From Heterotrichella gracilis (lineage: Eukaryota > Sar > Xanthophyceae > Tribonematales > Xanthonemataceae): a DNA stretch of 64,000 nucleotides. The stretch lies in contig JAULBX010029599.1 in NCBI GenBank assembly GCA_032358255.1, forward strand, positions 62,001 through 126,000, in the 5' to 3' direction. Shown here in pieces: positions 1-63,626 of this stretch. The notes under the pieces are model-generated. The model did not search any database. It saw only the letters and a program-made list of their open reading frames with translations, and was not told where the DNA came from. Positions within the stretch are counted from its first letter, which is position 1. Every line of letters begins with the position of its first letter. The position numbers and the translations under genes are program-made.

Positions 1-41
1 ACGCCACCTGCCCCTGTTGGACCCCCCCAGCGCATACACCC

Positions 42-316
42 ACACAGGGCCTGGAGTCGCTTTCCCAACCCCAAAACCCTAACCCAACTGGTTCCTTGCC
101 CGCCAAGTGTAAGACCCCTCCTCTGCCGCAGGGAGAAGTTCCTGGAGTCACGGCCTGAACCCTAGAACCCTTAACCCTAATACCCTCATTCCATTTGATA
201 CTTGCCTGCTTAGGGAGAGGAAGTTCCTGGAGTCACGGCCTGCAATCTAAAACCCTAAAACCCTAAAGCCTAATTCCTGCCTGCCGCAGGGAGAGGAAGT
301 TCCTGGAGTCGCGGCG
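42..316 (+). repeat. Three to four copies of the exon 5' end and its acceptor
   Basis: The functional copy (about 278-315) contains CTGCCGCAG, GGAGAGGAAG and TTCCTGGAGTCGCGGC. Near-identical copies lie upstream at 203-242 and 123-157, and a shorter remnant at 42-60 (CAGGGCCTGGAGTCGC). The gaps hold CCCTAA-rich DNA (66-83, 157-190, 246-272). The copies are about 75-80 bases apart. The copies at 123 and 278 keep a usable CCGCAG acceptor; the one at 203 has CTTAG. Confidence 0.85.
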
Positions 317-3300
317 GGCCAAGGAAAGCCTCCAAGGGGTGGTATCCGCGCAGCGCCGCACCTCGGTGACCACCAGGTGCTCCGAAACATGCACCGCCGC
401 GGGCAACGGGGTGTGCGAGGACGGGCGGGGCAACCATAGTGCCGCGGTGCTGTGCGATCTGGGCACCGACTGCGCCGACTGCGGGTCGTACACCTACGGC
501 GCGCCTGCGGACTACCGGGGCATGCCCTTCATTGAGCACCCCATACAGACGCTGGCCTTGAACCAGGTGAGAAATACGGGAGGAGAAACAGGGGGGGGAG
601 GGGGGGACAGGGGAGGGGGGAGTCCCCGTGCAAGGCCTGGGAGTTGGCACCCTCAGGGTTGCAACAAATGCCAGCATGGTGTTCACGCTGCACTCACACA
701 AGCTCAGCCACACTCGTGGATGCCGAGTCAGCATCAGTGCGCGCGCACCACGGAGCAGCATCAACCTGGCGGTGTGGGGCATTGCCAAGTGCCATGGACA
801 CAGACCAGATGCCCATGGTCACATGTGCACGATCTTAGGTGCATGATCGCATGTGGATGATCACATGTGCATGATCTTGGGGTGCACAAGCGCATGCGAA
901 TGCACATAAAGTTGCAGGCGTTGCACACGTGTATACCGTGTATTGCAATGCCCCGTGCCAGCAGCTGCCACCCCCACCCCGGTTCACATGCGATTTTGCA
1001 CATGCGATCGTGCACCCCAAGATCATGCTCATGTGGGTAACGTGGATTGGGGGGGTAATGTGACCCAGGCTGCACACGACAAGGATGTGCTTATTTACTA
1101 ACATTAGTATTATAAGTGTACCCCTGACATGGTGTACTGGCCGACTCGCCCCCTGCACGGCCACCGTTGCCCCCCTGCGGGCGATACCCATTGCTCCTGA
1201 ACCACGCCCCAATCGTCCAGCACCAACCAACCCTGATGACCCTGTGCATATCCACGTCAGTCTGCAAAGACTGTCCCACCGGAGCTACTCCACCCCCGCC
1301 ACCACCGCCGCCACCACCCACCCCACCCACCCCCACACCCCACCGCAGGTGGAGGTCCGGCTGCGCACCACCACCACGCCCATCCCCTTCAAGTTCGCCT
1401 ACACCTCCCCCCAAGTGGACCCCCAGGTCAGCGGCCAAGTGGATCAATCCGGAGCCCTAGACCCCGGCATGACCCCCGTATGGGACCGGATCCTCAAGGG
1501 GTGTGTGGACAGCCGGGGGCACCGCAAGCTTGTGCTGGATGTGGGGGCCTACTTTGGCTATTACTCGCTGCTGGCGGCCAGCTATGGATGCAGGTACACC
1601 CTACAACCCTACAACCCTGAACCCTACATGAACTTTGGCTGCTATGCGCTGCTGGCGGCCAGCTACGGGTGCAGGTGCGGTGGTTTTGTGTGTGGGGGGG
1701 GAGGGGGGGAACCAAAACCTTTGTTGGGGTTTGGGGGATATGTGCTGCTGGCAATCAGCTTGAGGTGCAGGTGCAAAATGCTGTGAGTTTGGCAGGGTTT
1801 TGGTGGGTTCTGGGTAGATGTGGGGGCATGCTTTGATACTGCTTGCAGCCAGCTATGGGTGCAGATGCGGCATTATGGGGTTGTGATGGGGGTAAGGGAG
1901 GGTTCTGGTAGGTTTTGGGTACCCTTGCTGCTGGCTGCCAGCTAAAGATGCAGCTGCAGAATGCCACCCGTCAACAGCAGGCAAAATGCTAGACCCCCAA
2001 ACGCCGACCTTGACCCTGACCCAAAACCCTTGCGTAGGGTCATCGCCTGGGAGCCAATCCCCCAGTTTGCCTCCTTTTTCACCTACAACCTGCAGCTCAA
2101 CAACCTCACGCACCTGGTGGAGCTGCGGCAGCGGGTGATCACTGATGATGAGGCGGGCAGCTTCCAACTGGTGTACCCTAGCGAGGGTCCATGGGCCAGC
2201 GCCAGCATGGAGTCCATCGCACCCATCTGGTGGGTGACGGCTGTGCAGTCGTGGGGCCATGTAAATGTTCACAGAAATGCTCAATTCTTTTTGGCCTGGA
2301 ATGGCTGTGTTTGTTTATTTAAAATGGCCATTAAAAAGCTGTTTCAAACGATCATAGCCTAGGGTTTGGATTGCCTTGAGCCGCGGCAGGTCCTTCATTC
2401 CCTGACACCATTTGGGGTGTCCATCTTTCATGTACCATCTTTCAGTTGCCGTTCATCACCACCCATTGCTAATTGTTGCATTCTCCATGTGGGTGCAGGG
2501 GTAACGACACCAAGGTGGAGCACGTGCGTGCGCTGCCTGAGGAGATTGGCAGCGCGGTGTTGGAGGATGTGCTGCTGCTCAAGGTGGGTGGGGGGTGGCC
2601 TGTGTGAGGTCTAGGGTTTAGGGTTTAGCCGTCAGGATGTTGGGGGGGGTGCTGCTGCTCAAGTTGTGGGGGGAAAGGGCCGCTGCCAGGGAGTAGCCTG
2701 TGTGGGGGTTGGATGTGGGGACTTAATGCTTTCCAGCCTACAGATGGGGTAGTTTCTCACAGCATACCCTTAAATTCAGAGGTCCACAAGTTCTTCATTG
2801 GGTTGAGCCTGCAGACAACTATGGGAAGGATTCCACCTACCGCCGTTCTTGTCAGCAGTGACTGATACCCACTGATGTTTGCAGACACTGAAAATACCAA
2901 TGCCATGCTCAGCAGTAACTTAAGTGAATGCACAGTGAACGGAAATATGCATGTGGGTTGCGGGCCAGCGTACGCTGGTTTGAGCCTGCCGCCTTGCCTT
3001 TCAGCAGTAACGATTTTTAATTCATTTCTGGGGCGCGAACCTTTAGCGCCGGTACAGCAAATCAAATACACAGTAAACGGCAATCATATTATATGCATGT
3101 GTGGTGCAGGCCAGCGTGGGCGGGTTTGAGCCTGCCGTCATGCGCTCCATGCACGGCTTCATCCAGAACTTCAAGGTGGAAAACATCATACTCAACTACC
3201 AGCCAGGGGTGCACGAGCGGCGGGAGAACTGGGGAGGGTACCTGGAGCTCACTGAGATGATGATGCAGTGTGTTGCCCGCAGAACCCTAAAACCCTTGAC

Positions 3301-4740
3301 AACCCCAAAACCCTTGACGGTGGATGACAATGCAGTGCGCACTTGAAACCCCAAACACTCGACAATGGAGGAGGGTGCATTGCCCGACCCTGGCTTGAAA
3401 CCCTAGAGTCCCTCGATGTGGTTGATGATGAAAACTTGGCGCATGCACCATAGGACTCCCACCCTCTCATTGAAAGACAGGGCCCGTACCGTGCCCCATG
3501 GTTCCTAATTAATTATTTTCGCCTTGTTATGTTTGTTAATTTTTTTTTATCATCTTTAAAACCGTTTTTAAATTCCTCCCCCTGCAGGCTGTGGCAGCGC
3601 AGCTACACCCTGGTCCACCTGCCCGACACCATGCTGCAGTCCTCCCCTGCGGCTGCCGACGACTTCCTGGCGCACCACCTGGAGGGGGTCACCCTGGACA
3701 ACCTCAAGGCAGACCTGGAGGATGGGCGGCTGCTGGCACAGGGGAAGCTGTGCCCCCGGGACCTGCCGGCTGACTTCCTGGTGGCGTACCCGTAAGTGTG
3801 CACCCCTTGCTTACCCTTGGTTAGGGTTTTTTTCCCATTCGCACTGGGCTCAGGGAGCCCTTCTATTTCCAAAAATTAGACTGGGGATGCTGGGCCCTTG
3901 GGACCTGCCGGCTGACTTTCTGGTGGCATACGTTTACGATTATTCTTGATTCCCAGACCTTGATTCTTTGTCTGAAAAGGTATTCTTTATCTAAAATAAA
4001 TATAGCCCTTTTTGTTTCTAGAACTGTATCTAACAATCATCTTCTAAATAACGGTAATGACAGTGTACAATAATACGTATCTAAGTATAATAAACTGTAT
4101 TACGGTAATAATAATACGGTGATCTAAGTAAAAATATCCTTGCCCCGCAGGCACTGGGCCCGCTGCAACATCATCCCTCAGTTCCTCAACCCCAAGAGCT
4201 TCCGCGCCACGCTGGGCAGCAGCACGCACCTGTGGGCAGCCAGCAACGCAGACCAGGCGCACGTGTCAACCACGGAGGGTATCGTGAGCTTTGACTGGGA
4301 CCCTAAGCAGTGGTTTGTGGCGGGGCAGGTGACCAACGGGGGGCTCAACTGCAGCGGCATCGCCCCGCAAGAGCAGGTGGGTGGTTAAGGTGTAGGGTGT
4401 AGGGTGGTGGTATGGTGTAATACAAGATTCACAAGGTTTTATTTGGCAGTCACATTCAGGGAGCCACCTGGACAATTTCAAGGCTGTTGGGGAAATGATA
4501 CCATTTAAATAACATCAGTTGAATGTCATTGAAATAAAATCAGTTGAATACCATTAAAATAATGTAAGTTGAATATATAATTTTATGAAAGTACAGTATC
4601 AAAATTATTTTTTGTGCGCTCAGATCATCCACCGCTGCCACTGCACCGACATCAGCGTGTGTGGCGAAGAGGAGAAGCTGGTGCAGATGCTGGCAGGGAA
4701 CGGGAAGCTCGACAGGCAGCCGGCCACCACCCTGCAGTGA
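290..4740 (+). CDS. FkbM-type SAM-dependent methyltransferase, 5' partial
   Basis: Eight exons are visible: 290-566, 1349-1593, 2038-2229, 2499-2583, 3110-3267, 3588-3791, 4151-4376 and 4624-4740, about 501 residues; the gene continues upstream because base 290 completes a split codon. Exon 2 encodes LVLDVGAYFGYYSLLAASYG, the glycine-rich SAM-binding motif I of class I methyltransferases, and splicing to exon 3 gives CRVIAWEPIP with the acidic residue that normally contacts the SAM ribose. Exon 5 starts ASVGGFEPAVMRSM, which matches the position of the FkbM DxEGxE motif, but the first two acidic residues are S and G here. The first exon is cysteine-rich (TCTAAGNGVCEDGRG, CDLGTDCADCG), which suggests a lumenal or secreted module. 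The 170 residues after the FkbM core match nothing I know. Family members O-methylate sugars and polyketides; the substrate here is unknown. Confidence 0.75.
1533..1952 (+). repeat. Five decaying copies of an exon 3' end in the following intron
   Basis: The last 60 bases of methyltransferase exon 2 (1533-1593, ending GGCCAGCTATGGATGCAG) recur in the next intron at 1629-1675, 1738-1771, 1814-1864 and 1921-1952. The first copy is nearly perfect over its 3' half (GCTGCTGGCGGCCAGCTA) and the later ones are progressively more diverged. Between the first two copies is a CCCTAcAACCCTgAACCCTA tract at 1603-1626. Confidence 0.85.
2566..2708 (+). repeat. Duplicated exon 3' end with TTTAGGG spacer
   Basis: The end of exon 4 and its donor (GATGTGCTGCTGCTCAAG followed by GTGGGTGGGGGG) is repeated at 2636-2708 as GATGTTGG...GTGCTGCTGCTCAAG. 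CTAGGGTTTAGGGTTTAG at 2611-2628 separates the copies. Both copies are followed by GCCTGTGTG. Confidence 0.8.
2797..3143 (+). repeat. Duplicated intron end plus exon 5' end
   Basis: The functional acceptor region at 3068-3143 (ACAGTAAACGG, ATGCATGTG, GCAG, GCCAGCGTGGGCGGG, TTTGAGCCTGCCG) has an upstream copy at 2929-2996 containing ACAGTGAACGG, ATGCATGTG, GGGCCAGCGT and GGTTTGAGCCTGCCG. A third fragment at about 2797-2860 has GGTTGAGCCTGCAG followed by TCAGCAGTGACT, matching the TCAGCAGTAAC that follows the second copy. Confidence 0.8.
3752..3936 (+). repeat. Duplicated exon 3' end in the following intron
   Basis: The end of exon 6 at 3752-3792 (GGGACCTGCCGGCTGACTTC, CTGGTGGCGTAC) is copied at 3894-3936 (GGGACCTGCCGGCTGACTTT, CTGGTGGCATAC). 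Only two or three bases differ over about 34. The spacer contains CCCTTGGTTAGGGTTTTT, a degenerate telomere-like tract. Confidence 0.85.
4498..4572 (+). repeat. Three imperfect 24-25 bp AT-rich tandem repeats
   Basis: Three units of the form CCATT-AAATAA-ATCAGTTGAAT sit head to tail in the last intron of the methyltransferase gene. The region is much more AT-rich than the exons. No function is evident. Confidence 0.7.
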
Positions 4741-6474
4741 GGCGCTGGGGATGGGGTGGGTGTACAGGTGGCCACTGGTGGGGGTATTGAAGGGGCGGGT
4801 GGGTTTTGGGCCTGGCCGGTGGTGTAGGGTTTCCGGTGCTTTGTTTAGTTGCCCTTTTTATTTGCTCTTGAGCTTGAGTTGGCACAAGGGGTGTTACCCG
4901 GCATCATGTTCTGTGGTCCAATCAGGTGTGCCTTGCATGGTTGTGCCAATAACCCCGGCTTGACGCTGCAGATTTTACTGGGAATCATTGGCCAGCGCGA
5001 TCCTGTTGGGGCTTATTAGGCTTTATTCACCCTAAACTGCCGCGGATGAAAGCTTGGGACCGTTGTCCAAGATGTGGTGCATGCAATTGTGCCATGGCAT
5101 GCAATTCAACAAACGCAGCGTCAGGCACCCACTGTTTGAGTTCTTGTTCTTCCCTTGCTTAGCATGGCATTGCACGGCCATGTGTTGCAGGCTCTGTGCC
5201 TGGCGGTGCATTTTTGCTACCATCGTCCGATTTAGGTGCTGCTCGTGCTTCCACATTCAATACACCGTAGCTGCACCGCGCTGCTTAGTCACAGGTCGAT
5301 TATATCCCATGGCGATTCATGCTTGGATCAGATGATAGGTGGCATCACTCCTTTTATTCCTTCCCTGTTTTCCCCCAACAAATTTGTACATCATTGAACC
5401 AATCCATCATTTTGTGTTAGCAGACCATTGGCATCCATCATTCTGTTGTTGTTGTGGTCGCCACAGCAAATGTTGTGGTCTCTACAGCAAAAATTACATC
5501 ATTTGTGGCTGCCAGCTCAGCTGTGAGCCAGTCAGCAGAGCCATCAGTACTAGGTGTGGTGGGCTGCCGAGTGGGTGCGCGTTTTGTTCCTTTCTTTCTT
5601 CCCAGGCCCAGTGGGATCATGCCCCAGCTTATTGCGTGTGATTGTATGCCATAAGCAGGGCATAATATCCTACTTGCATTAGTGCCCCTTTCCGTCGCTT
5701 TGGTTAGATTAAGTATAATATGCGAACCCAGCTCGTGTTTTTCACACAATTGCCCATGCGCAGTGCCATTGTGACCTCTAGCTAACAAGCCTTAAGCAAC
5801 CGCTGAAGGTTGCTGTAATTGTTATGCCATGCAAACAGAGGTACAGCCCCAAATACTGTCTGATGCATCATGAGCCTTAGGCTTCCAAAGCTGCAAATGC
5901 CTTTGAAAAGGTACTCCACTTTTCACCAAAGTGGCACATAATTTCCTGACAGCATTTCCTTCAGTGGAAAGTTTACGGCGCCATCTCTGCTACGGCCGGG
6001 CGGTCACCTCTTTGGGGCTGCCTTGTAAGCGTGACGATCGTCGAGCGGACCTTGTTCGTCGAACTTAGGTCGACTCTGTCGCGAGCATCGCATACGTTAC
6101 GTACGGTACCCGCTCGTATGCAAAGCAGGCGTACGCTTCATCTGCCTCCAAATGTCGGGTTCTTCCCATGTTTCATGTGATCATCAACGGGCTCCAGTAG
6201 AAGCGTTTGGTCCACTTGAAAGGCCCTTGCACTTGCAACACCTGGACACGATGGAAAGTTTCCGCCCCAATTGATTCCTTACTAGAATCCGAGCATGCTT
6301 TCATTGCAATCCGATACCGGGCGTATTCTACCCTGAAGTTCACTGAGCACCTCTGTGACATCCCATCCCTGTGCTCTTCTACTCTCCCCATGGCAACAGT
6401 CCATGCTGCTTTGCCCTGCCAATAAGTAAGTTCACATAGAGTCTAGACCTTGACAAGGGGCATCCAACACCATC
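4741..6474. other. Intergenic region with a CpG-dense segment
   Basis: The 3' flank of the methyltransferase and the promoter of the next gene. No ORF here resembles a protein. Bases 5985-6135 are unusually dense in CpG (about two dozen in 150 bases, for example GATCGTCGAGCGG and ACGTTACGTACGG), unlike the CpG-poor flanks, and could be a promoter-proximal CpG island. Confidence 0.5.
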
Positions 6475-35821: not shown

Positions 35822-38800
35822 ATGGATCAAGCCAGAGAGGACATGCCTGGTGAAGTCACAGTGTCTGTGCCACAACCTCAAGGCCTGCGCGAACCCCTGC
35901 TAGATTCAGAGAACGGGCACAATGAAGCTGCACCGCATGGAAAGAGGTATGTCCTCATCTCACGCGCCCTGTCTCTGCTTGTGGGCTGCATGCCATTTGC
36001 ATGTGGCATGCTGCACCCCCAGTGAGGTGGCAGTCTTTATGCCCCCGGCTCTATGCTGCAGCTGCTTGTGTTGTGGCTTCAGGACTGGGGATGGCCACCA
36101 CTTGATTCTGGTGTCGGACACAAAGAGCTCTGTGTCCCTGGCGGTGTTCAATTTGGCCACCAGTATTGTAGGCGCAGGTGCGTCTGCTCATTAACATTGG
36201 ATTGCCGTATTGGTGGTGCAAACAAGTACGCATTCATTTTTTTTCAGTACACTGTCCTGATGATGGAGCACTTCCACTGCAGGTATCATGGCTCTACCAA
36301 AAGCCTTTTCAACGCTGGGAATCATCCTTGGCGTAGCGCTCTTTATCTCTGTTTCTTTATTATCCTACTTTTCGCTCGCGTCCCTTGTGCGGTAAGGGCT
36401 CAACCCAATGCTTTATATTGATGTACACAAATGTCTTTTGTGGGATGTATGGCAAGTGATGCTGATTTGCAACGTGCTTGCAGTGCATCAGAAAAGACGC
36501 AGCAAGGCTCTTACGCCAGTTTGGTGCGGAGTCAGTATGGGCGAGGTGGTGCCATACTTCTACAGCTGGCCATCATTATCAATAATGCAGGCGAGTTCAA
36601 AAATAGTTCTGTGCATTTTGGCAATGGAAAGTTTGTGAAGGCTACATACCACGCATAAGATTTGCATAGGATAAGCATAGGATAAGCTCTGGCAGCACAT
36701 TTGGCAGCAAGGGAGCATGTTGCATGTTTCGAATGTGCCAATGTGGCTCTGATACGATGCGCAGGCATGATGATTGCGTACCTCATCATCATTGGCGATG
36801 TGTTGGTGGGCGACGCGCCAAATTTTGAGGGCCTCATCACAAACGTGCTGAACATCCACGACAACAGTGCATGGTATGCGCGGCGAGACTTTGTGGTGAG
36901 TTCCAGCCGCTCCGCACCTGCCATGCACAGCTCGCTGATATATCCCTCCACAAATATGCAATGGAATCACAACATTGCATGTGGCCATACTATTTGCCTG
37001 TACAGAGACAGCATTGCGTGCCATGCAGGTGGGCGTGATGTGCCTGGTGGTTTTGCTTCCGCTCATGTCGCTCAGGTAGGCATTCCTTGTAGCTTGTTGG
37101 ATTTGCAAGCGGCTCTGCCGTGAGCTGATGGTAACATGGATGGTAATAATTTTATGAATAAAATAGCTAAAACATAATTTTTATATTTTAGCTATCTAAG
37201 TTATTTTAGATATGTTTGTTGCTGTAACATTGTTGTGTTGTCTAGTTGTTCAAAATGAATACTAAAATGTGGCAACAAAATAACAGAAGTAAAAAGAACG
37301 CGGGTACAATCTTATTGTTCTTTCACCCAATGTCAAGTTGTCAATCAATTTGGTTGAAGGTGCGCATCAGTGCATTCACAGAGCAATTTAACGAGTTGAG
37401 TCCGTCTGCTCCGTGTACAGGAATTTGAGCTTCCTGGCCCCAGTGAGCCTAATCAGCACCTTCCTGGCAGCAAGCTTTGCGCTCACAGTGATGGCCTTGG
37501 CCATCGAAGCAGCAGCACGGGGGGTCTCAGCCAAAGTGCACTGGCTGCCCAGCGGGGCCGAGTTGGGTGGGAGCATCGGCCAGGCTGCCATCAACATCCT
37601 GGCAACCATTCCAGTGATCATGCTGGCGTTCATCTGCCACTTCAACATCCATCCAGTGGTATGTGGTTGCCACATTGGGGTTGCAGTTTATAAGCTGGGG
37701 ACAGTCGGCGCAATATGCTGCACGCTAAATGCCAATCTGGGACCCACATCTTGTAATTCGTAGCTGATAGCAGTGCATTTGAGCATTCCCCCATGCCACA
37801 CAACTCCACAATGACACCCACGACTGCACGCAGTCATGAGCTGAATGCGGTGCTGAAAACCCACCCACATGGCACCCATTGCAGATGTACTGCGGTTTTA
37901 CCTAGTTGAAGCCAGAATTGCCACCCACCGCAGATGCACTCCCTCGCCAACTACACCACCGCCCGCATGTGCGCCGCCATCCGAAACGCCCTCTCGCTGT
38001 GCCTCGCAATCTACCTGACGGCGGCAGTGAGCGGCTACTCGCTCTTTGGCAGCGCCGTGGAGGGCAACATCCTCAAGAACTTCACCTCCGCCATGCTGGC
38101 GCGCCTGCTGCCTGAGCTGGCAGCGGAGGCGGTGTCGGCCGCCTTCCGGCTCAGCTTCTGCCTATGCCTCATGGTAAGGCCAGGGGTATACTAGTATAGT
38201 AATAGTTTAATTGGTGAGACTGAGGGGTGCAGCTGAGTTCACATGTGTGTGCAGGCAGGCTGGCTGGACAGCATTGATACCTGGTGATATTGGTACGTGC
38301 TGTGTATTGGTGCATGGTGTGTCAGGCTGGTGGTTGGTCCACGTCCTTGGCATGTCCTGTACCCCCTGGGGCACAAGGTTTGCATGCAGATGTGCAGTGC
38401 ATGCAAGCGGCGCCTTTGCACTATCACAACGGCACTTCAGCACGATGGACTGGATGATGTGACACTGCGCACGTCCATGTGGTCTGCATGCTGCGGGCTC
38501 CCTGCCTGCGAGTGCTTTGCTGCACACTGATGTACCTGCCACTTCCGCAGGCCGCCTTCTCCCTTCAAAACCTTAAACCCTACATACTTAAACCATATAC
38601 CATTAACCCCAAAACTGATGCACCTGCCACTCCCCGCAGGCCGCCTTCTCCCTCCAAAACTGGTCGCTGCGCAGCCAGCTGGGCGAGCTGCTGTTTGGCC
38701 TCACAGGCGACCTCCCCGCGCTCAAATTCTTCGTCATCACCCTCCCCTCCCTGGCGGCTGTCTACACCGTATCCATCCTTGTCCCTGAGGTGTGGCTCGC

Positions 38801-39557: not shown

Positions 39558-42338
39558 ATGCATAGCCTCAACTGCAACATGTTACGACACCAAATGCATG
39601 CGCGGCCCGAACCCCTCGTGCGGGGGAAGGCAGCGGCGGTGCTGCTAAACCCCAATCGCTGTGTCGACACACGAGCATCTGCACAAGGAGCCTTATCAAC
39701 AGGTACAGTTGTTGGCAAGTGGGCACGGCCAACCCAAATTGCGATATACGCATGCATGTGTCAGCTCACACCGACTCACATAGCCAAGAACTGTTTGCCA
39801 GTCTACTGCCCCACCATGCTTTGAACCAACACATCTTCAAGTATATCGACTCCATTTTGTCACCTTGCACGTACCACCTCCTGATTGCTGTGTATCGACC
39901 CCGCGCCCTCGCGATCGTTTGACTGTGTAGGTCCAGACTACACCCGCGTGCACCGAAACCTCGCGCTGGACCTTGTTCGGGTCACTGAAGCAGCAGCGCT
40001 GTCTGCCGGGAGGTGGTACGGCAAAGGAGACAAGAACGCAGCTGACCAGGTGTGCGGTTGGTGGGTCGGGCCTGTTTCAAATTTGTGAACTTTGCTGCTA
40101 CCACTACAGGGTTAAGGATTACCCTATCACAATAGCTGATCCCTAATGGTATGGGGTTGCACAGTGGGTCTGCAAAAGCAACAGCTGACTGTCTATGCCT
40201 CAAATGCAGGGTGCAGTGGACCAAATGCGCAAGGTGTTGAACTACATGCCAGTGGACGGCATGGTGGTGATTGGGGAGGGAGAAAAGGATGAGGTAAGTA
40301 TTTTACATTGGCCAAAGTAACGCTTAAGCTTGTCCTAGAGCAAGCAGGGTGAATTGCTGGCAATTTAATTTTTTGGAATGTACCCCGAAAACCCCATCAA
40401 CCACCCATTTTTTTTCTGCCTAGGCGCCTATGCTCTACTGTGGTGAGCGCTTGGGTGACGGAGCCGAGGGCAACCCCGCCTTTGACATTGCGGTTGACCC
40501 CCTGGATGGAACCACGTTGGTTGCTCAGGTAGGCACAGGCCACACGGTGTCCTTGTTGATGTACAGTTATTGCTATTGCTACTGTTAATGTTATTGAAAG
40601 AAGGTTGCAAGGTGCAGGGTTCATGGATAATGATTTTCACTGGTGTAGCGTCTACCCTTGACATGTGCAAATCCCTTCCCTTTCATCAGGGCCGCAGTGG
40701 AGCGGTGTCGGTGATAGCCATGGCTGAGCGCGGCTCACTCTTTGACCCTGGCCCATGCATGTACATGGAGAAGCTGGCGGTGGGGCCAGCGGTGCACCCT
40801 GAGGCAGTCAGCCTGGACTACCCTCCGGCACTCAATATCAGGGTACGCTCCTCTTCCCGTGCGCAGCTCCTCTCTGTCTGACTGTCGGCAATCACATCAT
40901 GCTGCCGCATTGTGGTATGTGATAATCAACCCATTTTAGCATGGCAAGCCAGCTTATTAAAAGAAGCAATCAATCATAACTAACCGCGATAACTAAACAA
41001 TGTACAACAAAAACACAGGCTTGTACTAATTGCAGAATACCAAAAAATAAAAGGTATATAATACATAGTTACCTGCCCAGGTGGTTGCCATGTCCCTGGG
41101 CAAGGACGTGAGTGACGTCACAGTGCTCATCCTGGACCGGCCGCGCCACCAGGAGCTGATCCAGGCCTGCCGGGATGCGGGGGCGCGCATCCGCCTCATC
41201 TCAGACGGGGACGTAGGTGGCGCCATTGAGGTGGCCAAGGCGGGGTCACCGGTGGACCTGATGATGGGCATCGGGGGCACGCCGGAGGGTATGTGCACGT
41301 GCACGCAGAAACCCTAAACCCTGACACCATGCATGGGCCACTGTGCAGTGAATGGCTTTGGGAATGCACATGAGATGGTGTGCCCTTTCGCATGCTTTTT
41401 CCGTGTACTTGTTTTTAGCTGTGCTGACGTATTTGACGTATGCATGGCTGAACACTACAGCTCAATGCCATTCCACACACGAAAAATATATGATTGAATG
41501 GTTGCAGGTGTGATTGCCGCATGCGCCCTCAAGTGCATGGGTGGCTCCATCCAGGGCAGGCTGTGGCCCCGGAACGACGTGGAGCGACAGAAAACCCTAG
41601 ATGCAGGGTATGACATCAGCAAGGTAAGACATAGGTGCATCATTATTCTTGAAAGGATTTCCAATATTGGACGACGCCGGAAGGTTGTCCATTGGGTTAA
41701 TACCATAATATGCAGTTTTCCGTGCACAACCCCGCGAATGGGTCCGGATACATCAAGTTGCATACACTCAGATGCTGCTTTGTGCTGTGTAGATCTTGCA
41801 GGCAAATGACCTATGCTCAGGGCAGGAGGTGTTCTTCTCCGCGACTGGGGTGTCTGACGGGGACCTACTGAAGGGTGTGCGCTACTTTGCTGGAGGGGCC
41901 TCCACGCACTCTATCGTCATGCGCTCGCAGTCAGGCACAGGTGCGGCTGGGGCAATGGCTGTGCAACCTTGGGCCAGGGGTCATTCACTGGTCAGTTGGC
42001 ATGCATGGGACTGCAGCATCAGTCTGGGAATGCCATTGTGAGGCAATTTCACATTTGCATGCACAACGTGATGCGCCACCAGTGCCATGCCATACTCCCC
42101 CTTGGGAGCCCTTTTAAACCCCTTTCCCCACCAGTACTTCTAGCTGACAGGGCAACAGTTTGATTGGTGCTGTGGGTTATGTTCCCTGACCGTCATCGTT
42201 CCACTTGCAGTGCGCATGCTTGAAACGCAGCACCGCTGGGAGCGGCCAGGCATCACCAACCTGGAAGGAAACTTGGGCCTGGTATCACACGACAGGAATG
42301 GAAGCTCTGCGTACCAGCTCAGATTGGGGCACCATTGA
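39558..42338 (+). CDS. glpX: GlpX-type class II fructose-1,6-bisphosphatase, plastid-type
   Basis: Nine exons (39558-39702, 39931-40049, 40210-40293, 40424-40528, 40690-40842, 41081-41288, 41508-41623, 41793-41940, 42211-42338) give 401 residues. The first 48, encoded by exon 1, form an Arg/Ala/Ser-rich leader with few acids, as in plastid transit peptides; the enzyme core starts at about residue 50 with [35 protein letters not shown] and [11 protein letters not shown] carry the metal- and phosphate-binding residues; [31 protein letters not shown] and [11 protein letters not shown] follow. This is the cyanobacterial dual FBPase/SBPase type, a bisphosphate phosphatase of the Calvin cycle and gluconeogenesis, and not the plant class I enzyme. 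Which substrate it uses cannot be read from the sequence. Confidence 0.92.
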
Positions 42339-42903: not shown

Positions 42904-45900
42904 CTACGAGCCCTTTTTTTGCACGTTTGGCAGTGCAGAGCTCCACCTGGGCCATAGCCAGCTTGTCGGCGCCCCAACCACAGCCATGAGGTTGTGAATG
43001 CCTGAGGAGGGTGGCTGGTGGTGCGGGTGGAGCGGCTGGTGTTGGTGGTGGGTGGCGGGACGCGGGTGGCTGTGGTGCTTGAGGGTGTCGATGTAGGTCT
43101 GACCTGACATTACTGTTTTGACCTGCTGGCAGTGGGTGTGTGTTCAGGGCATGGCATGAGCTGGCTTATCTGTAAGGTGTGAAACGACACTCTCGTGCAG
43201 CAGCACAGAACATGGGTTATTGCTCTGCATGACAGCTCCCAAACATGATTGCACCACAGTAAAATAAGGTGTGTTCACCCATCCCACATGCAGGCACAGG
43301 CTTGTGAAATCTCTACATGTCTGCTATTGCACAGCACCGCAATCTCTTGCAGGGCCCTATACACAGTGGTCCATTTATCTCTTGGGTAGGTATAGGGTGA
43401 CTTGATGTCATTGTGTGCAGCAGGAATGACCCATGTGCCTGCACTTGCCTGGAAGGCGTCAGCAAGGTCAAGCCCACCCCCACCCCAATTTGCACCATTA
43501 ACCCCCCCACTGCATTGTTTCTCAACCTCCAAGTGATCTCCCTCATGGAACGCATAATGACATCTAAACATAATATACATGACATATAATATACATGACA
43601 TCTAAACATAATATACATCCTAGCGCTCGATATCCTTCCTCCCGCCCACACAACCAATTATCTCCTTCCCACACACGCCACTTGCCTGGAATGACAGCAG
43701 CATGGCCAGGCCCACCCCCGCACCCAGCGCAGCAGTAAGCAAATACGCCACCGCCATCAGCCAGGGTGGGGATCCCAGCAGCCAGCGCATGCTAAGTGTG
43801 AGATACCACCACACCGAGCTGGTTGGCTGCGCCCCCGAGACCCGAAACACCACGTGGAACTGGTTGGTGACCTCTGGGAGGCGCCTGGCCAGCAGCGCCA
43901 CCGACAGTATGGTGATGTAGGCGCAGCTGATGAGCATCCAGGCCAGCATGAGGATGAAGGAGCGCAGGTTGGCGGTGCCCACGCAGTTGCCGATGAAGGG
44001 GCAGTGGTGGTCCATGTGCACGATGCACACGCGGCACACGCTGCGCCAGGGGTGTAGTGACAATCACAAACAAAATAAAAAAGAATAAGATTTATAGGAT
44101 TATGTACCGTACTGGCGATAGGGGTTGGCCCCCAATAATGCTATAATTGTTTTAGGCGAAATTTTATAATTAAACGTTTTGCCTTGGGGGCAACCAATGG
44201 TATTTTTTTCCATTTTTTGAAAAATTTTTTTTTCAAAAAAATTGCCTTTTTCGGGGGCGAATCAGCCTATCATTGCTCCTGCTCGTGTTCAAACTCAATC
44301 CTGGCTCTATAAATACCTTCGACCTTGTTTTTGGGTTCCCTTACAACTGTTTGTGCTGTTCGTTCGACAGACGACTAGTTTGCCGCCCGGATCGTGGTCC
44401 CGCGCAACGTTTCCCCCAAGGCATGCCGTTGGTCGTAAACTGTATCCCAGCACTGTTCAACTATTTCGAAAAGAAACGACAGGAATGTGGCGAACGGAGT
44501 GCTACCAGAAGCTACATAACGACGTTCGACGCAGTGCAACTCAGCCAAAAAATGCCCTATTTTAGTTGGGGCGAAATATTTAAATTTAAAATTTGCCTGG
44601 GGCGAAAGTGAAAACCATGCTTTATAATTGTTTTCTGCAGAGGGGGGCCAACCCCTATCGCCAGTACGGGTAATTTAAAAACCATAAAAATAGACAAGTT
44701 AGATGCACTGTCTCAGCGCACGCCGAATGCGCTGCAAGGATGCGCTGCACTGAATGGCAGGTGCACCAACACAGAATCCAAATATGACAAGACAAGAAGC
44801 TCGCATGCATAAGGCAGCTCGCGCCAGTGCTTTCAGGAATCCCAGGCACCAACCTTGCCCTTGTCCCAATTTTGCCCTGCCAGGCCGCACCTGCAGTGGT
44901 GCGCGTATGGCGGCTTGAAGTAGCGGCACTGGCGACAGAAGGTGAAACCATCGAACGCCTGGCGATCTGCCACCTCTGTCACTGGCCATTCTATACCCAG
45001 CACATCCTTGCTGGTGCCTGCATTGCACACGGTGCAGGCGTGTGTTAAGCTCCAACCTCGCTCTTGTGTGCACGCTTGGGGTGTGCGCGCCAGATTCTGT
45101 CAGCCGTGAGGCCAAAGCAAATGCCAGAATGCAACACCGTGCCAGCTCATTCTTCCGCACGTGCCATGCCCACCAGCAAAACGCGTACATTGCCTGTTTG
45201 TTGGGCCCATGCAGGTTGGGACCCACCTCCCCCCGCTTGCACCACCACCAACCCCACCCCTCACACCCCACGCCCACACCCTTGCTGGGGTATGAAGCCA
45301 CAGTCTCTCACCTGGCGAGCGTATGACGCAGTACAGGTAGTTGACCACCACGTTGACCAGCATCAGCAGGCTCAAGCCCAGGTGCAGCCCATAGGCCGGC
45401 CCAGAGAACAGCGGCAGCAGGTACCGGATCCCCACCACCGCCACCGAGCCTATCAGCACCAGGATGAGGAGCACCACCGCTCGATGCACGCTGGCTATCC
45501 GCAGCTGGTCCTGGAACCACTTGCAGGTTTGGGGCGGGGCGGTGTGGTGCCGGGCATGCGCGTGGTCGTCGCTGTACAGGCTGTTGAGGGCGCCGCACCA
45601 GCCGCACTGCAGGCAAAGGGTTGGGTCGGTGCAATGCCACTGAGTCAACCTGGCTACAAGCTGGAATGCAGATACTTTGATGCCACAGAGTGCTGCGAAG
45701 GCTGTTGAGTGTGACCGCAGTGTGCTGTTTCTGCTGAGAGTAGCCGATGGATGTTCTGCAGAGTTGTATGAGGGCTTTCACTCGTGGTGGAGGGTGGGTT
45801 TGGCGGCGTGGTTTCGCACCTTGAAGGCGCTGGCTAGGGAGCCTCCCACCATGGGCACTTGTATTTGTGCCTGGCACGCCCAACAGGTGCACACTTGTTG

Positions 45901-47133: not shown

Positions 47134-50100
47134 ATGGAGCACGTGTCTGGGCTAGACAGTGGCCTACAGGACCGCCAGATGGATGTGGAGTTCATCCTAT
47201 CGCGCATCAAGCGGAACAAGCTCACGGAAAACAAGCCCATATCCAGTGTTCAGAAGCGCGGAGGTGCAGAGGGTGAAGGGGATGACGGCTCGGTCTGGAT
47301 TAGGCCCAGTGGTGAGTGGCCCTAGCCTGGGTGACAGCCTACTTACAAGCCCCTTGTGTCCAACCTTCGGCGTGGCATCCACCACTTCCCTCCTGTCGCA
47401 GGGCCACGTCGGCTGGGTGAAGGCGTTGAGGATATGGAGCAGGGCATCATCAGTGCAGAACAGCTGCCCAGTGGGTGAGTGTGCTGGTGTAGACATTTCT
47501 GTGCCCAACTCCAAGATGATGCTTGATGTTCACTACCCCCTATACTCAATATACTAACCATTCTGCGATCCCTACACGCTGGATTGGCTCATGCTGGCAC
47601 CAAGGCAGCCATCATGGCCTGGTGGTGTTCCTTTGAGCCTTGCACATGTGGTCCCTGAACTTAGGCTCCGCACTCCCTGCCACCTCTCAACTACCCGCTG
47701 ACTGCTGCGTGGTGTGCAGGGGGGCGCTGCTCAAGATCACTCTACTGGCAGCTGGTTTTGTCATAGGTGAGTAACCAGTACTGCTTCACCCGCATGGCAA
47801 GAGGCATGGCATGTGCACCGCACAGGCTAGCCACCTTTGCATAGCAACGGCCTGACACCAGTACTGCATCCCCCGCATGGCTTGTGGCACGACATATGCA
47901 CCCCACCAGGTAAGCCACCCCTGCATAGCATTGACCCGACATCATTGTTGCTTCTTTCCAGGCCCCTCCGGCAGCTCCATTCGTGAGATATCCAGGATGA
48001 CTGGCTCGGACATCAAGTCGTGGACGGAGAAGACGCAGTGCGTGTCCAACAGGCCCTCCCGCACCTTCCTCGTGCAGGTATTGGTCCACACACATATGCA
48101 AACCTGCATGCGTTTGTCACCGGAAGGCTGGCCAACGTGTTGCAGTAGCATGCTGCTGTAAAGTGTTAGGTCCTAGGGTTTAGGGTTGCACTTGTTCAAC
48201 AACTGTGTGCATGGGTCAACAGCTGCATGCCCCAATCTGTACAGTGTTTGCCGTTCATTGTCTCGGGTGATTGGGGCCTGCTATGGCTGGCTAGTGCACC
48301 CGTATTGCAGGCTGGCTCACTTGGCTCGCCCCTCCAGCAGGGCTCCCAGGAGGGCATTGTCAAGGCGCTGGAGATTGTGTGCGACGCCGTGGACCGATAC
48401 AAGGAGCTGTGCGAGGGGGGCATGGTTGGTGAGCACCGCAAACCTGGCCAGCTCTTTATTACAGTACAAGCGTCCCAGCAGTACGGCCGTAGTGCAGTCA
48501 CCCTTGCACAGCTTGTGTCAAGCAGCCGCCAGAGGACACTCGCCAGGCCCTACAACCCCTTGCAGTCATGTATTGGCACCTTTGGCCTTCCCTTGTGTCC
48601 TCCCACACCTGGCAGGGGTTTGAGCGTGTGGTTGGTGGCAGTTTTACGGGTTTACGGGTTTGGGGTTGGGCCATGTGGCTGGCGCCAGCCTGAGCAGCAG
48701 AGCTGACGCATACTCTGCCTGTGCAGGCCAACTGGTCCCCCGTGTGCAAATCGTGCACGGCGTGGAGTTCAGCTACCAGCCGCCCCCGCGCAACGTTGTG
48801 CCGTTTGCCGCAGCGCTCAGGCCAGAAGACCGAAGGTGAGCCGCACACCGCATAATGCCATGCATGCCCCTGCACACCCACGAGGCCCACTGTCACACCA
48901 CCATGAATCCTGCTACGTATTTTGTAAATCAAGTGCACGCCCACGTTGTGCCACAGCGCAAGGCCTTACAAGCCAAGTCAATTTGCCCAAGATAAATCTG
49001 ATGCACCATCTTGCAATATTCCCAGGCGTCGCGCTGTGCATGCTGATCGCGGGCTGGGGTGCACTCCCTACATCGTTACCTAGCGCGTGCCCCGCTGTCA
49101 CGCTTACATCCTGCCTGCCGCTTGCAGGGTGGGGCGTGCGTCGGCGCCGCGCATGTCGCAGGGCGGTATGCCAGGCATGGTGCCAGGCATGGGCATGCAG
49201 CCCGGGATGAACCACATGGGCATGCCGCCGGGCATGGTCCAGATGCACCCCATGCAGGGCGCCATGCCGCACCCCAGCCTCAACCCTGCCTACCACCCTG
49301 GCCTCCCCAGCATGGCGGCCTACCAGCAGGCAGCAGCCATGGCAAATTCCAGGGCCTACGACGGCCACCACGGCCCCGTTAGCATGCACGGCGCGGTCAA
49401 CATGCACGGCGGGGGCATGACGGGGGTACCCGCAGCCGTCCCGCCACAGGCGCCGCTGTACCATTTCCCGCCTAAGCTTACTCCCGTGGTGCCTGCGCAC
49501 CCACCCACCTACCGCGCACCGCACCCGCAGCTCCCCACAGGGAGGCGCCCCAACCGGTCCTCCGCGCAGCGCGGTGGTGGCTCCCACACCGACCAGCCCC
49601 ACCCCTCGGTGCCCGTCTCGATGGACTTGGCTGCCCAGCAGAACCAGGCCATGCAGCAGCAGTCCAGCCCCTTTGCCAAGGCGAGCGGTGGCCCCTTCAC
49701 CCCCCAGTCCCCACCGCAGCAGCAGCACCCCCAGGGGGATGCCCTCGTGCACTCGGACAGCTTCCAGCAGATCGGCTCCCACGTGGTCATTCCCGTAGAG
49801 GTGGCCCGCCAGATGGGGCTCCTGGGGAACAGTGGCTCACCGCCGGGGACTGCAAATTCTCAGGGCGGGCCGGTGCCCATGCGGCTGAGTGAGGCGCTGC
49901 GCAAGGCGGGCAGTGGAGCCATGGAGCAGCCGGAGCGGGCGGCTTCGGCGACTTCCAGCGTGTTGGCGCCGCCGCTAGCTGCGGGCCGGGCGAGCAGCAT
50001 GGGCAGCCTTGCGACCAGCCGAGCAGGTATGCGTGGCACCACCCACACAGCGCATTGATGCACCCCACAGTGCAGCAGCCCCACTACAGACCTGGTTGCC

Positions 50101-59200: not shown

Positions 59201-62200
59201 CCTCCAGGCAATCACCAGCGCAGGCCCCTGCCCCGCTCACTCGGTCGTCATCTAGGGCCAAGCAGCAGCCTGCGGCGCAGCCCCGTGCGGAACCCCAGAG
59301 GGTTTCTGGGCGCGGCAAGCCGCCCAAGGGGGCTGGTACGGCTCCACCCAAGGCGGCAGGTGGGAGGCTGTGCACTGCAATGTGCCCTTGGGCTCATCCG
59401 CCCCCTAGATCGTGCCTGATCGGTGCGGCATGCTGTGTGGCGTGCTGCGCGGCATGCATCATTGCCATTGCCAATGCGCTGCGTGAGTGGATGGTGCAGT
59501 ACATGACTGCTGCCATACTGTAGCCACCTAAATGTTTGCCTGCGAGTGGCAATGATGGGTCCCCCATTCTGCAACTCTGGTGGCTTCTGTGGCGCTCAAG
59601 TGGCACTGTTGGAATTGCTGGTGCATAGTAATGGCGGTGGCGGCGCAGGTGATGCCAAGCCCGGCCCCTCAGGTGCCAACCCCACCAACAGCGGCTCGCA
59701 GCAGGGAGGGCGCAAGCCAGCCAACAGCGGGCGCAGCAGCGGTGGCAACGGGGCAGGCAACAATGGCGCCGCCAGCCGAGCCAATGCCAATGTCAGTGCC
59801 AATGCCAATGCGACTGGCATTGCCAGTGCCAGTGTGAATGCCAATCCGTTGACCAAGGCGCTGCTGATGGCCAGTGTGCCGGACCTGAGGCCAGCCACCA
59901 CAGTCATGGAGGTAAACCCTAAACCCTAATCCTGAGGCCAGGCACTGTGTCACCGTGTCATGTAGGTACCCCAAACCCTAATTGTACTTTTAATCATTAC
60001 ACTGTAATTATTGTTGTCATTATTACCATCAATATTATGATTGTTACTTTGACCTTGTACTTGAATAGTTGCAGTTGTAAGTGATTGTACTTGTGATTAT
60101 AATTCACACCATGTACCTCCCAGGCCCAGGAGCGCGGCGAGCAGACGCAGTACCTGGATGATGTCATCTACGCGCTGGATGGGCTCATGCCATCAAACTC
60201 GCTATCCGTGCAGCAGGACAGCGCCGCCTCGCTGGCAGAGATTTGCGCCTCAAGGCGGGGGCGCATGGCGCTCAGGTAGGCGGGTTTAGGGTTTAGGCTT
60301 TAGGCTTTAGGGACAGCCGCAGCCGCTTGCACCGCGCATGCCAATCATGCTGATTACAGTGCTCTATGCTTGGGCGTGTATGGCTGCATGGGGCAGATTG
60401 GGAAGTATGTCCTAACAATGGGATTGCATACATGTCACGATTACCCTGGGGATGTTGCAACGCCTGGGATGGTTTGCTGTGTGAACGCATTGGGGCCACA
60501 TGGAGGACCCCATCCAGAAACCCTATCATTCAACCCTACTCCTCTCCTGGGTGGTGCAGGAGCGCCGGGCTGGCAGCCGAGGTGCTCTCGGTGGCCTCCC
60601 GGCTACCCGTGGCAGCAGACCCCACCCTAGCCCTCGCCTTCGCCACCATCGCATTCGCGTTTGCCTCCCCGGATGGCGACCTGGGCTTGCTGGCCAGTGA
60701 CGATGGCATGGCTGTCATCCTCAGCGCCATCGCGGGGTCCCACCTGCCCCACAGCAGCAGCAGCAGCAGGGCTGCCTGGGAGAAGATCTCGCGAATTCTG
60801 ACGGAGGGGCCGCTGTCCCGGGGACTGCCCAGGGAGCTGACCGAGGATGCAAAATCGGTGGTGGTGGCGGCGCTGGCAGGTACGGGACTACCTTCAGAGC
60901 ATTACATGTTTGCAACCTGCACCTGCAATACATATTCCTACACCATGCTGGTGGAGGTTGTTTGCCAATCCTGGAGGAATTGACCATATAGCAACATATG
61001 TTGTTACTAGGCATGCACCTCGTACGCATGTGTGTATGGCTTCCAGCACCACCGATCACCACTGTGCCTTTGCAGGTGCCACTGACCCTCACCGGGGTAG
61101 CCCCCAGGGGGAGCGCCTGAAGGAGGCCATGCGAGGGTCGGGTGTGCTAGATGCAGTGGTGGGGTGTGGCAGGGAGTATGCGGGGCAGTACCGGCGAGAA
61201 CAGGGGGCAGATGGTGGGGTGGCTGTCAGGTGAGGGAACGGTGGGGGGTGGGGGGCGGCGATATGCGCATGGTGAATGTTTTTGGTACCTTTTGTGCCGT
61301 GGAACTGGTTAAGGCTAAGCTTTAGGTTTGTATGCGCCTGAGTGAGATTCATTCCTGGTGGTTGCTGCGCCGTAGGTTTGTCAGGGGGATGGCATGTGTG
61401 CAACAGTACCACACGCACACAACTGCACTGGTGCAGCCGACCATTTCAAGCCATACAACTAAGCAAACCCTGCCCAGCACTGCTTGGCATACCTGCAAGA
61501 CAAAGAAAAACCCTGATCGCTGACCCCTAATCACCACCCACTGCCTGGCATACCTGCAGGACCCTGACCAAGCTGCAGCGCGCCCTCACCCTCCTGGAGA
61601 ATGTCACCTTTGCGTGCACAGCCAATGAGACGCACCTGGTGGCACTGGCACTGCCCGCCACGCAGGAGGCGGGGCCAGGGGGACCCTTTGCATCCTGGCT
61701 GGTGTCCCTCACTGCGGCGCTGTGGCAGCCCGACCAGGCGGCGCCGGTGGGAACCCTAAAGGTGGGCACTGCGACGAGGCAGAAACCTTAGTGTAGGGGA
61801 TTGTGCGTTGTGGGGCCGGGTGTGTGTGCATCATCTCGCTTGTTGCCCGGCCCGCACCATGCCACAGCATGTGGTTGAGTGACTAAAAATGACAAAGTTA
61901 GCTGTCACCCAGTTGCAAAACCTGGGCCTTCAAACCAATCGCTGGTGCAACGTCACCAACCTAGTCTTCACCTCTTCCCCATTGGACTGTAGCAGCCACC
62001 CTGACCTCCCTCCTTGCAGGAGTGCCTGCACGCGTGCCTGGCTGTGCTGATGAACGTGACGCACAACCACGATGGGGGGAGGGAGCAGGTGGTGGCGGCA
62101 GGAGGGGTGGCGGCGGCGCTGGCAGTGCTCAGACACTGGGTGGATATGGACCCAACCACGCCAAGGGGTAAGCGCATGCGGAGGGAATTGGGGGTGCGGG

Positions 62201-63626
62201 GTTATGTGCTGGAAGTTGCAAAGCACTGTAGGCGTTTGTGGGTAGTGACAGGGACTGTCGCGACCAAATGCGTGTGGGTTTCAGCTGCTGTAGCAAGTTT
62301 GGGTCGTCGGTCGGTCATTGCTGGGCCCCTCCAGTGTCTGCCGTCTTTGTTGCAGTATCAGGGGTGACCCCTTGCCACATTACTTGAGTCCCAGTGTCCC
62401 AACATGCACACCGCTAAAAGTTTATACTGTAAGATTCAAGGTAAGTTGCAAATACACTAATGATTTTTCGGGCACAGTCCCGATAATCGGGAATCGGATT
62501 GTGATCAGATGAATTTCTTATTTTCTTCTTTTCCAATTGCGCACATTTATGCATTGCAGGTGCTGCACGGGCACGGATCCTGTCCGGGATCGACCTCATC
62601 AGCGTATCCCTGGGATTGCTCATCAACCTGGTGGAGGAAACCCACGCCAACCGGCGCGTGGTCCAGGCACACCAGGATGCGCCACCTGGCAACGGGGTGC
62701 CCCATGTGGGTACTGTGTCGCTGCTGTGCCGGCTGATGGCCATCATGGCGGTGGAGAGGGGTGGGGGTGGGGGCAGGGAGGGCGACGAGATGACTGTTGA
62801 GCGGTTACAGGAGCGGGAGGAGCAGGGGCACGCGTCGATTGTAGAGGTGAGGATATGGAAAAGTGAGGAGGAGTATGTTAAACTTACGAGTATAGATCAT
62901 AAAAAATTGGAAGGACAAGCTGGGTGGCTATGTATTCGATTATATTTAGCGCATGGAATGATGGCACCTGCATATGTATGCACCGAGAAAATATTCGTGC
63001 TCGGCTTGGAAACCCTTCCTTGTGATCTTGTAATGCGCATTCACCACCAGCACCAGCACCATGCCAGCACGTGACCAGCAACTTGTCCTGCACACCTTTT
63101 GTAATCATCAAGCAATGGTTACAATCATGTGTGCCTGCAGACCATTTGTAATCACCAATCAATGGTTACAATCATGTGTGCCTGCAGACCATTTGCAATC
63201 AACAAGTGATCGTCACAATCATGTGTGCCTGCAGACCATTTGCAATCAACAAGTAATCGTCACAACCATGTGTGCCTGCAGACCATTTGTAATCAACAAG
63301 TAATCGTCACAATCATGTGTGCCTGCAGACATTTGTAATCAACAAGTAATCGTCACAATCATGTGTGCCTGCAGACCTACACCGCGCTGCTCCTGGGTTT
63401 CCTCATCGAGGGCGACGAGGAGCTCCAAAGCAGTGCAGCGGCGCTGCTGCCTGGCCAGTCGCTGGATTGCGTGGTGCGGGCAGTGGAGTGCTGCCTGCAC
63501 TTTTACGTGAACGCGGGCGCCATCACCAAGTCCACAGAGGCCTCCTTGCGCAAGCTGCTGGCGTCACTCAAGCGTGACGTGGCCATGTCGCAGCACCTGG
63601 CATCGCAGCAGTCGGTGCAAATATGA
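56282..63626 (+). CDS. WAPL: WAPL cohesin release factor
   Basis: Ten exons (56282-57493, 58879-59359, 59649-59911, 60124-60275, 60560-60879, 61076-61229, 61560-61761, 62020-62167, 62560-62846, 63375-63626) give 1156 residues. The N-terminal 640 are low-complexity Ser, Pro, Ala, Gln and Lys with basic patches (FTRKRRGSS, KQKQSTLQSFFRSSS; the latter resembles a PCNA-binding PIP box, Q..L..FF). From about 645 the WAPL fold begins: VMEAQERGEQTQYLDDVIYA, LDGLMPSNSLSVQQDSAASL, AEICASRRGRMALRSAG, matching plant WAPL (EFGE, DEV, ALDGL). Helical repeats with LVEETHANRRVV and ALLLGFLIEGDEE continue to the end. WAPL opens the cohesin ring to release it from chromosomes. Exon 2 and 3 repeats (ANANVSANANATG) are variable-looking. 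Confidence 0.9.
57736..58782. mobile_element. About 1.05-kb hAT-like non-autonomous transposon
   Basis: The left end TAGGGATTCAAAATACCACG is the imperfect inverse of the right end, whose reverse complement begins TAGGGATGCAAGACACGTGA. Both ends continue into runs of ACGTATT and TACGTA words. Flanks are GCCTAAAC (57728-57735) and CCCTAAAC (58783-58790), seven of eight matching, as expected for an 8-bp hAT target duplication, though they also resemble a telomere unit. The inside is AT-rich with no transposase. It occupies most of WAPL intron 1 and the ends are diverged, so it is older than the element in the DHHC gene. Confidence 0.75.
59884..59983 (+). repeat. Tandem duplication of exon 3' end plus telomere-like tract
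   Basis: Unit 1 (59884-59929) runs CCTGAGGCCAGCCACC, GTCATGGAG, GTAAACCCTAAACCCTAAT across the WAPL exon 3 donor. Unit 2 (59931-59983) runs CCTGAGGCCAGGCACT, GTCATGTAG, GTACCCCAAACCCTAAT. The boundary and the telomere-like tail are duplicated as one block. Confidence 0.85.
61478..61570 (+). repeat. Duplicated acceptor before WAPL exon 7
   Basis: CACTGCTTGGCATACCTGCA at 61478 matches the functional CACTGCCTGGCATACCTGCA (61539) with one difference. AAAACCCTGA and ACCCCTAATC lie between. The upstream copy reads CTGCAAG, so its acceptor has decayed. Confidence 0.85.
63083..63376 (+). repeat. 47-bp tandem repeats, each with a splice acceptor, before WAPL exon 10
   Basis: TGTGCCTGCAG ends at 63140, 63187, 63234, 63281, 63328 and 63374, a period of 47 (last 46). 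Each unit continues with ACCATTTGTAATCAACAAGT, AATCGTCACAATCA. A degenerate seventh unit precedes at about 63083. The last acceptor is the one in frame with exon 10. Units are about 90-98 percent alike, so the array is young. Confidence 0.95.

Follow-up and report, generated by a model that had tools for sequence, protein, structure and literature searches.

We analysed a window of 64,000 nucleotides (nt) from the xanthophyte alga Heterotrichella gracilis (contig JAULBX010029599.1, here C706; C706:62001-126000 of an assembly of 68.5 Mb in 903 contigs) in which DNA spanning splice junctions is copied into the adjacent introns, at several places with telomere-like sequence between the copies. 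The genes that carry these copies encode an FkbM-like methyltransferase, at the start of the window, and an amino-acid transporter (Pfam PF01490). A model of the FkbM-like gene made by hand gives a single open frame of 500 amino acids that runs to the stop codon, and its splice sites are therefore taken to be sound. The predicted protein matches Pfam PF05050 (E=1.8e-4, 22.1 bits), just under the cut-off of 22.7, with 334 of the 500 amino acids scanned. Ungapped comparison of the window with itself, taking as local repeats those matches with a score of at least 16 and a distance of no more than 1.5 kb, gave 56 matches versus 1, 0, 1, and 1 in four dinucleotide shuffles. Copies sharing sequence with an exon were confirmed at six junctions in five introns, one of which begins before the window, and all of them are described here on the forward strand.

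The exon of the FkbM-like gene at 290-566 (hand model) has its start copied upstream. The source at acceptor 290 comprises the junction and the exon start (288-315) and is matched within 129-239 at 135-154 and 212-239 with an identity of 0.95-0.96; one telomere-like C-strand tract follows each copy (166-180 and 250-273, or C706:62166-62180 and C706:62250-62273). At donor 1593 the source is the exon end plus GT (1551-1595), and a telomere-like tract at 1613-1626 separates it from the first of four intronic exon-end copies (1632-1676, 1730-1774, 1839-1870, and 1924-1964; scores 18.5-30). An earlier interpretation made from the DNA letters alone, which we call the sequence-only reading, held that such copies decay with distance from the junction. 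This pattern is not clean, because copies 1, 3, and 4 are equally similar to the source (87-88% identity over 26-45 nt) and copy 2 resembles only the other copies (78-79%). Donor 2583 has its source at 2558-2593 and a copy at 2638-2673 (score 21), with a TTTAGGG-like tract, read by eye, at about 2612-2628. At acceptor 3110 the copy (2945-2997) precedes the source (3091-3143) with a score of 33, and no telomeric tract was seen there. The source at donor 3791 (3738-3789) and its copy (3880-3931) are separated by 88 nt that are unlike the DNA following the copy (z 0.3). In the transporter gene, the region concerned at acceptor 38640 is 38526-38660, with the copy at 38545-38571, a tract at 38568-38582, and the source at 38634-38660. 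Copies at donor 3267 are visible by eye and fall below the score threshold.

Thus, the copying described by the sequence-only reading is real, and the extent that it claimed, no fewer than ten boundaries in four genes, is reduced to six junctions in two genes. Its higher count took in intronic arrays beside junctions. These are an 83-nt-spaced repeat right after donor 47766 (47774-47906) that is no exon copy, a 24-nt repeat at acceptor 61560 of a WAPL-like gene (61478-61562, score 19) with 3 nt in common with the exon, and an essentially intronic 47-nt minisatellite of 6.2 copies with 93% matches (63087-63377) that ends at acceptor 63375; all three are intronic, having 0-3 nt in common with an exon. 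Telomere-like tracts, which had been reported for at least seven cases, lie between source and copy at four confirmed junctions (290, 1593, 2583, and 38640), are weak at 3791, and are missing at 3110.

The observation reaches beyond the window. We examined 306 kb of this one genome, consisting of C706:1-176000, window included, and 13 contig starts of 10 kb, 11 of which yielded introns; contig starts are thereby over-represented and are richer in events. A self-trained hidden Markov model, for which a single hand model plus three open frames served as the training set, predicted 371 introns of 60-1500 nt, 84 of them wholly within the window. This gene finder fuses adjacent genes, and it ended the exon at 1349-1593 at the second copy of the donor (1674), so that the intron is counted as 1675-2037 in sample-wide counts. 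A search for exon-end copies scoring 15 or more found 27 from the upstream exon and 22 from the downstream exon, compared with 1, 0, and 1 and 0, 0, and 2 in three controls that paired exons and introns at random. The sequence-only reading had offered to be refuted if copies spanning boundaries proved no commoner than copies from exon interiors, and these counts on the 371 introns leave it standing on that point. Copies of this kind affected 46 introns, and in 33 of them the source lay no more than 8 nt from the junction. Neither this search nor the tests of filler similarity and of tracts in these 33 introns used a low-complexity filter, the shuffled pairings being equally unfiltered, and 22 of the 49 best arms are low-complexity by a strict rule. 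A stricter search for whole junctions found a copy in 30 of the 371 predicted introns (about 8%). Introns with junction copies were longer (median 459.5 versus 249 nt, p 2e-9), although longer introns also offer more room. The events are concentrated in certain genes, and p values computed as if introns were independent are therefore too small. Contig starts had a higher share of affected introns (18/132) than C706 (12/239), which may come from subtelomeric or repeat-rich contigs.

The geometry of the copies was measured as well. They reach a median of 27-31 nt into the exon, with extents from 11 to 111 nt, and about 5 nt into the intron, and their median identity to the source is 0.88. The median distance from a copy to its own junction is 117 nt (quartiles 73-163), and the median distance to the far intron end is 248 nt. 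Low-complexity arms were excluded from the analyses of identity, junction and interior events, tract flanks, orientation, and the null model, and telomeric arms were also excluded from identity. In the tandem genomic duplication model of intron gain, two copies of one exon segment bound the intron. Among repeats up to 500 nt apart, none of the 41 classified junction events lay within 15 nt of the opposite intron end, and the process therefore appears to be mainly one of intron growth, not gain. The sole candidate for intron gain by tandem duplication, which may instead be a misprediction, is a predicted intron of 113 nt that lies before the window (C706:5734-5846) and carries at its 3' end a repeat of 27 nt from the exon upstream (score 22). 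Copies were direct in 25 cases and inverted in one, and inverted template switching was rejected on this ratio. The templated duplication proposed by the sequence-only reading is too specific as a term, since staggered-end fill-in fits this ratio at least as well.

We examined the relation between telomere-like sequence and the copies. The assembly contained 406 + 428 matches to three units of the telomere repeat and none to the reversed control, six contigs start with six-unit TTTAGGG arrays, and telomerase is present, with two matches to Telomerase_RBD on contig C626. With a telomere-like tract defined as 13 of 14 letters, tracts occupied 9.54 bp/kb of introns, 3.37 bp/kb of intergenic DNA, and 0.21 bp/kb of exons; within introns the reversed motif covered 33 bp versus 1482 bp of telomere-like sequence. 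The near absence from exons is what selection on the events would give, as the sequence-only reading had supposed. Telomere-like DNA amounted to 88 bp/kb in the filler between source and copy, to 13.6 in the remainder of the 29 introns concerned, and to 6.6 in event-free introns; a looser definition (11 of 12 letters) gave 130, 23.6, and 9.7. Of the 29 introns, 9 had a tract in the filler by the stricter definition and 13 by the looser one. Tracts occurred in 13/33 introns with junction copies versus 28/338 others (Fisher p 6.6e-6; length-stratified p 0.0014). The link would have been lost had tracts been equally common in introns without copies, and here too the sequence-only reading survived.

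The converse comparison gave a similar picture. Direct repeats within 160 nt flanked 29/92 intronic tracts, 10/313 random intron points, and 0/11 intergenic tracts, and within 60 nt of a junction the counts were 20/59 tracts versus 7/129 random intron points. In this test and in the test of orientation telomeric letters were masked, and both also took in loci L003-L007, L009, and L010, chosen for telomeric matches, and L036-L038; some of the tracts counted therefore come from loci so chosen, and arrays are counted more than once. In 25 of the 29 repeat-flanked tracts an arm overlaps a predicted exon, some of these being small exons predicted inside arrays. Even in introns in which no copy was detected, tract density was 6.5 and 4.5 per 10 kb near the two intron ends versus 2.4 elsewhere.

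We compared the placement of these events with a null model in which random insertions with flanking duplication occur in 322 event-free introns, wholly exonic insertions are removed, and the introns then diverge. Nine settings were used (three duplication lengths by three divergence ranges). Interior repeats with less than 20 nt between the arms (11/29) were excluded, leaving 18 interior events, and the observed ratio of junction to interior events was 41:18, or by intron 30 versus 10 with interior events only. The null ratio was 0.23-1.04 to 1, and the observed ratio was higher in all nine settings (p 2e-17 to 6e-3). Among copies at least 95% alike the ratio was 11:1, and the null gave 4:20 to 17:10. 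Thus, the junction bias is real in every setting of the null, and its size, roughly two- to tenfold, is set by the parameters assumed. It is a bias and not a strict rule, because 10 introns carry interior repeats only, with filler. We also considered whether breakpoints hug the splice site. The null medians were 21-39 nt for the exon and 8-20 nt for the intron, so that decay and selection give most of the asymmetry with a small residue, and the idea was rejected.

Based on these results, we lean, with modest confidence, towards the reading that short inserts in genes of this alga are scars of break repair, bearing flanking direct duplications and often telomeric filler, and that they are commonest near splice junctions. 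Repair of a break within a gene would leave an insert between two direct copies of some 20-75 nt, and telomere-like (TTTAGGG) sequence would enter the insert in somewhat under half of affected introns. When the duplication spans a junction, one junction would keep working, and the other copy and the insert would turn into intron; the intron would lengthen and the copy decay. Repetition of the process, together with tandem copying of whole units, would build arrays. The cause may be staggered double-strand breaks, with the duplication produced by fill-in of overhangs, as by CST-Pol alpha-primase, and then end joining. Filler repeats could come from telomerase or from captured telomeric DNA, and such DNA may have been taken up either way round or tracts may have turned over afterwards. 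Selection would remove exonic events. Our guess is that the preference for junctions comes from breaks linked to transcription or splicing. We regard as doubtful the broader proposal that junctions are break hot spots, perhaps owing to transcription or splicing, where telomerase and overhang fill-in provide an ordinary route of repair, so that telomeric DNA and junction duplication form a main engine of intron growth.

Several findings weigh against the repair-scar reading. Two introns among the 49 exon-end hits, both outside the 41 events, have a copy of an exon at their opposite end, the arrangement expected from intron gain (C706:5734-5846 and L029:8875-9108, the latter a tandem array). In 16/33 introns the filler resembles the copy's other flank (z>=3.5), some of these having telomeric DNA on both sides and others being true tandem units. 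The gap between null and data narrows to within twofold when duplications are longest and divergence is highest, and splice sites beyond the hand-checked genes are predictions of the hidden Markov model from DNA alone. The filler has no telomeric tract in 16-20 of 29 introns (looser or stricter definition). Intronic tracts are on the C strand in 36 cases and the G strand in 21, an excess that a strand-blind process yields only if selection acts. Telomerase healing of broken ends would place G-strand repeats against the left fragment and C-strand repeats against the right; 17 cases were for this arrangement and 26 against, with 4 ties (G 5 left and 8 right; C 12 right and 18 left with 4 ties; array copies included). 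The claim of the sequence-only reading that breaks near splice sites are repaired with telomeric repeat addition therefore divides: the junction excess in all nine null settings and the enrichment of telomere-like DNA between copies agree with repair near splice sites, but the orientations speak against telomerase addition at the break. A branch-point role for CCCTAA tracts was also considered, and the counts by intron end (C:G 11:4 at 3' ends and 10:9 at 5' ends) were too few to claim it.

The alternative that fares best is ordinary local tandem duplication by slippage or unequal exchange, in which units spanning a junction survive and telomere-like DNA is merely caught in the unit. True tandem units do occur (C706:43092, z 23; L024:4254, z 22; L029:8875, z 36), and the clearest array, L028:3600-4230, has about seven rounds of exon end, donor, short tail, and CCCTAAA tract, with the telomeric stretch inside the units. 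Random placement with selection also yields exon extents like those observed (medians 21-39 versus 27-31 nt). We nevertheless judge this explanation unlikely, given that junction events exceeded random placement in every setting and that the telomeric DNA in the filler is left without a reason. In addition, the intron DNA beside source and copy is dissimilar in 17/33 pairs (z<3.5, letter shuffles), including a 30/30 exon match in intron L028:5115-5605, and plain tandem copying of one unit therefore does not fit those cases. By reasoning from the same 30/30 match, which lies beside unalignable introns, we rejected diverged haplotypes joined by unequal exchange, because identical silent sites would be required as well.

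A mobile element that makes long target-site duplications near splice sites, with telomere-like sequence as its part or its preferred target, would account for the resemblance of the repeat-filler-repeat geometry to insertion with target duplication, and dispersed repeat families of 77-89 nt are present in introns. Introner-like elements are known as one dispersed sequence, carrying splice sites, that is common to many introns. Here a genome-wide search with non-telomeric filler within L028:5496-5605 (intron L028:5115-5605) matched only its own place, and by our reading of the matches the fillers of the 306-kb sample resemble other loci solely through telomere-like or paralogous sequence. The exon extents of the duplications also vary too widely to favour a mobile element (11 to 111 nt, as above), which we consider improbable. 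Slightly less probable still is that copies are kept for a function, as spare splice sites or as control elements like telo boxes. The copied GT or AG is kept in 20/28 copies, and tracts lie near intron ends even where no copy was found, but the neutral-decay expectation is 22.7 (p 0.22), so that no selection on the dinucleotides was seen in these 28 copies, and the copies are diverged and differ between paralogues. Finally, an artefact of gene prediction or assembly, to which home-made gene models, the 903 contigs, and the excess of affected introns at contig starts might point, is highly improbable, since the first gene, as modelled by hand, keeps a single open frame to its stop, 10 further models with several exons contain no internal stop codon, and the copies, being mostly diverged from their sources, are not assembly echoes.

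The repair-scar reading shares features with known systems. In Daphnia pulex, introns originate and grow through staggered double-strand breaks (PMC4202315), and our case is similar in its break-repair direct repeats within introns, its exon-end repeats, and passive intron growth; as there, intronic direct repeats exceed chance (56 versus 0-1 in the window, 27 + 22 versus 0-2 in the sample). The exon-shared repeats in Daphnia measure 4-12 bp and are found at the other end of the new intron, whereas here they are mostly 20-75 nt and near their own junction, and terms beginning with "telomer-" are absent from that text. In mammals, interstitial telomeric sequences were inserted at break repair, with duplicated flanks at 6/130 rodent and 4/25 primate loci (PMC2246262). 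Those short internal telomeric tracts, some with duplicated flanks, resemble ours; in our case 29/92 intronic tracts are flanked by repeats, 25/29 with an exon-overlapping arm. In mouse cells, fill-in of 3' overhangs by CST-Pol alpha at Cas9 breaks makes small tandem duplications (PMC8355091). Direct duplication by staggered-end fill-in may be common to both cases, and that complex also serves telomeres; the available text mentions neither telomeric filler nor splice junctions.

Direct repeats at intron-exon borders in many taxa have been ascribed to break repair at insertion (PMC11782384), but they are 4-30 bp (mean 11.4) and pair both borders of one intron, whereas in our case the intron contains a copy of a single border. 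Plant telo boxes are short telomere motifs in genes for which an origin by telomerase at breaks has been proposed; in Arabidopsis their density in introns is close to that of the whole genome (150.7 versus 155.2 per Mb), whereas introns are the richest compartment here and are denser in tracts near splice sites (PMC3022908). As a caution, Drosophila introns are about as often flanked by short direct repeats when gained (19/77) as when conserved (26/100) (PMC3296678). The accessible part of a study of a green alga has nothing on telomeric repeats in introns (PMC12636532). Among the titles and opening lines of abstracts listed by searches of the open literature, with preprints and most subscription papers outside that scope, telomeric tracts between duplicated splice junctions were not described.

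Together these observations suggest that repair of DNA breaks helps introns to grow at their edges. Intron lengthening and the role of break repair in it have so far been argued mostly from rare new introns; in the 306-kb sample from this alga about 8% of predicted introns still show the step, as an exon copy with filler, and the conserved exon serves as a yardstick of age. Should the bias towards junctions and the telomeric filler prove true of the whole genome, intron evolution would be tied to telomere biology and break repair, and this could be tested in one organism.

The events are clustered by gene. Five of the six exon-sharing junctions of the window lie in the one FkbM-like gene (window 1-4740), and its paralogue at locus L036 on contig C251 also carries several. 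In that paralogue the intron before the exon at 1515 holds an 89-nt copy with a telomeric tract, and the intron before 2082 holds two further acceptor-like copies, read from the alignment. The junctions copied in the window gene differ from those copied in this distant paralogue, and the events therefore probably postdate the gene duplication.

Other repeats and genes were also observed. One intron of the FkbM-like gene contains a repeat of some 77 nt (window 4416-4492) that is dispersed over about 40 places, five of which lie no more than 100 nt from the beginning of a contig. Another dispersed repeat, of 89 nt at L028:5372-5460, has 39 other scored places (85-99% identity) among 160 first-look candidates; it lies in predicted introns of four sample loci, itself included, and has no Rfam match. 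A scan of the window and four loci against Rfam gave no matches. The start of contig C400 (L024:1-270) is a tandem array with a spacing of 77 nt and a CCCTAA-like stretch in each unit. Other genes of the window are predicted by Pfam to encode an HI0933-like flavoprotein, an oxysterol-binding protein, and a WAPL protein, and an intron-rich gene at 39931-42338 encodes a GlpX-type (bacterial) fructose-1,6-bisphosphatase (E 5e-135). A gene in which a DHHC motif was spotted by eye has a predicted intron with 563 bp bounded by perfect 27-nt inverted repeats (44107-44133 and 44643-44669); judging from these repeats, the element at 44107-44669 looks like a small DNA transposon.

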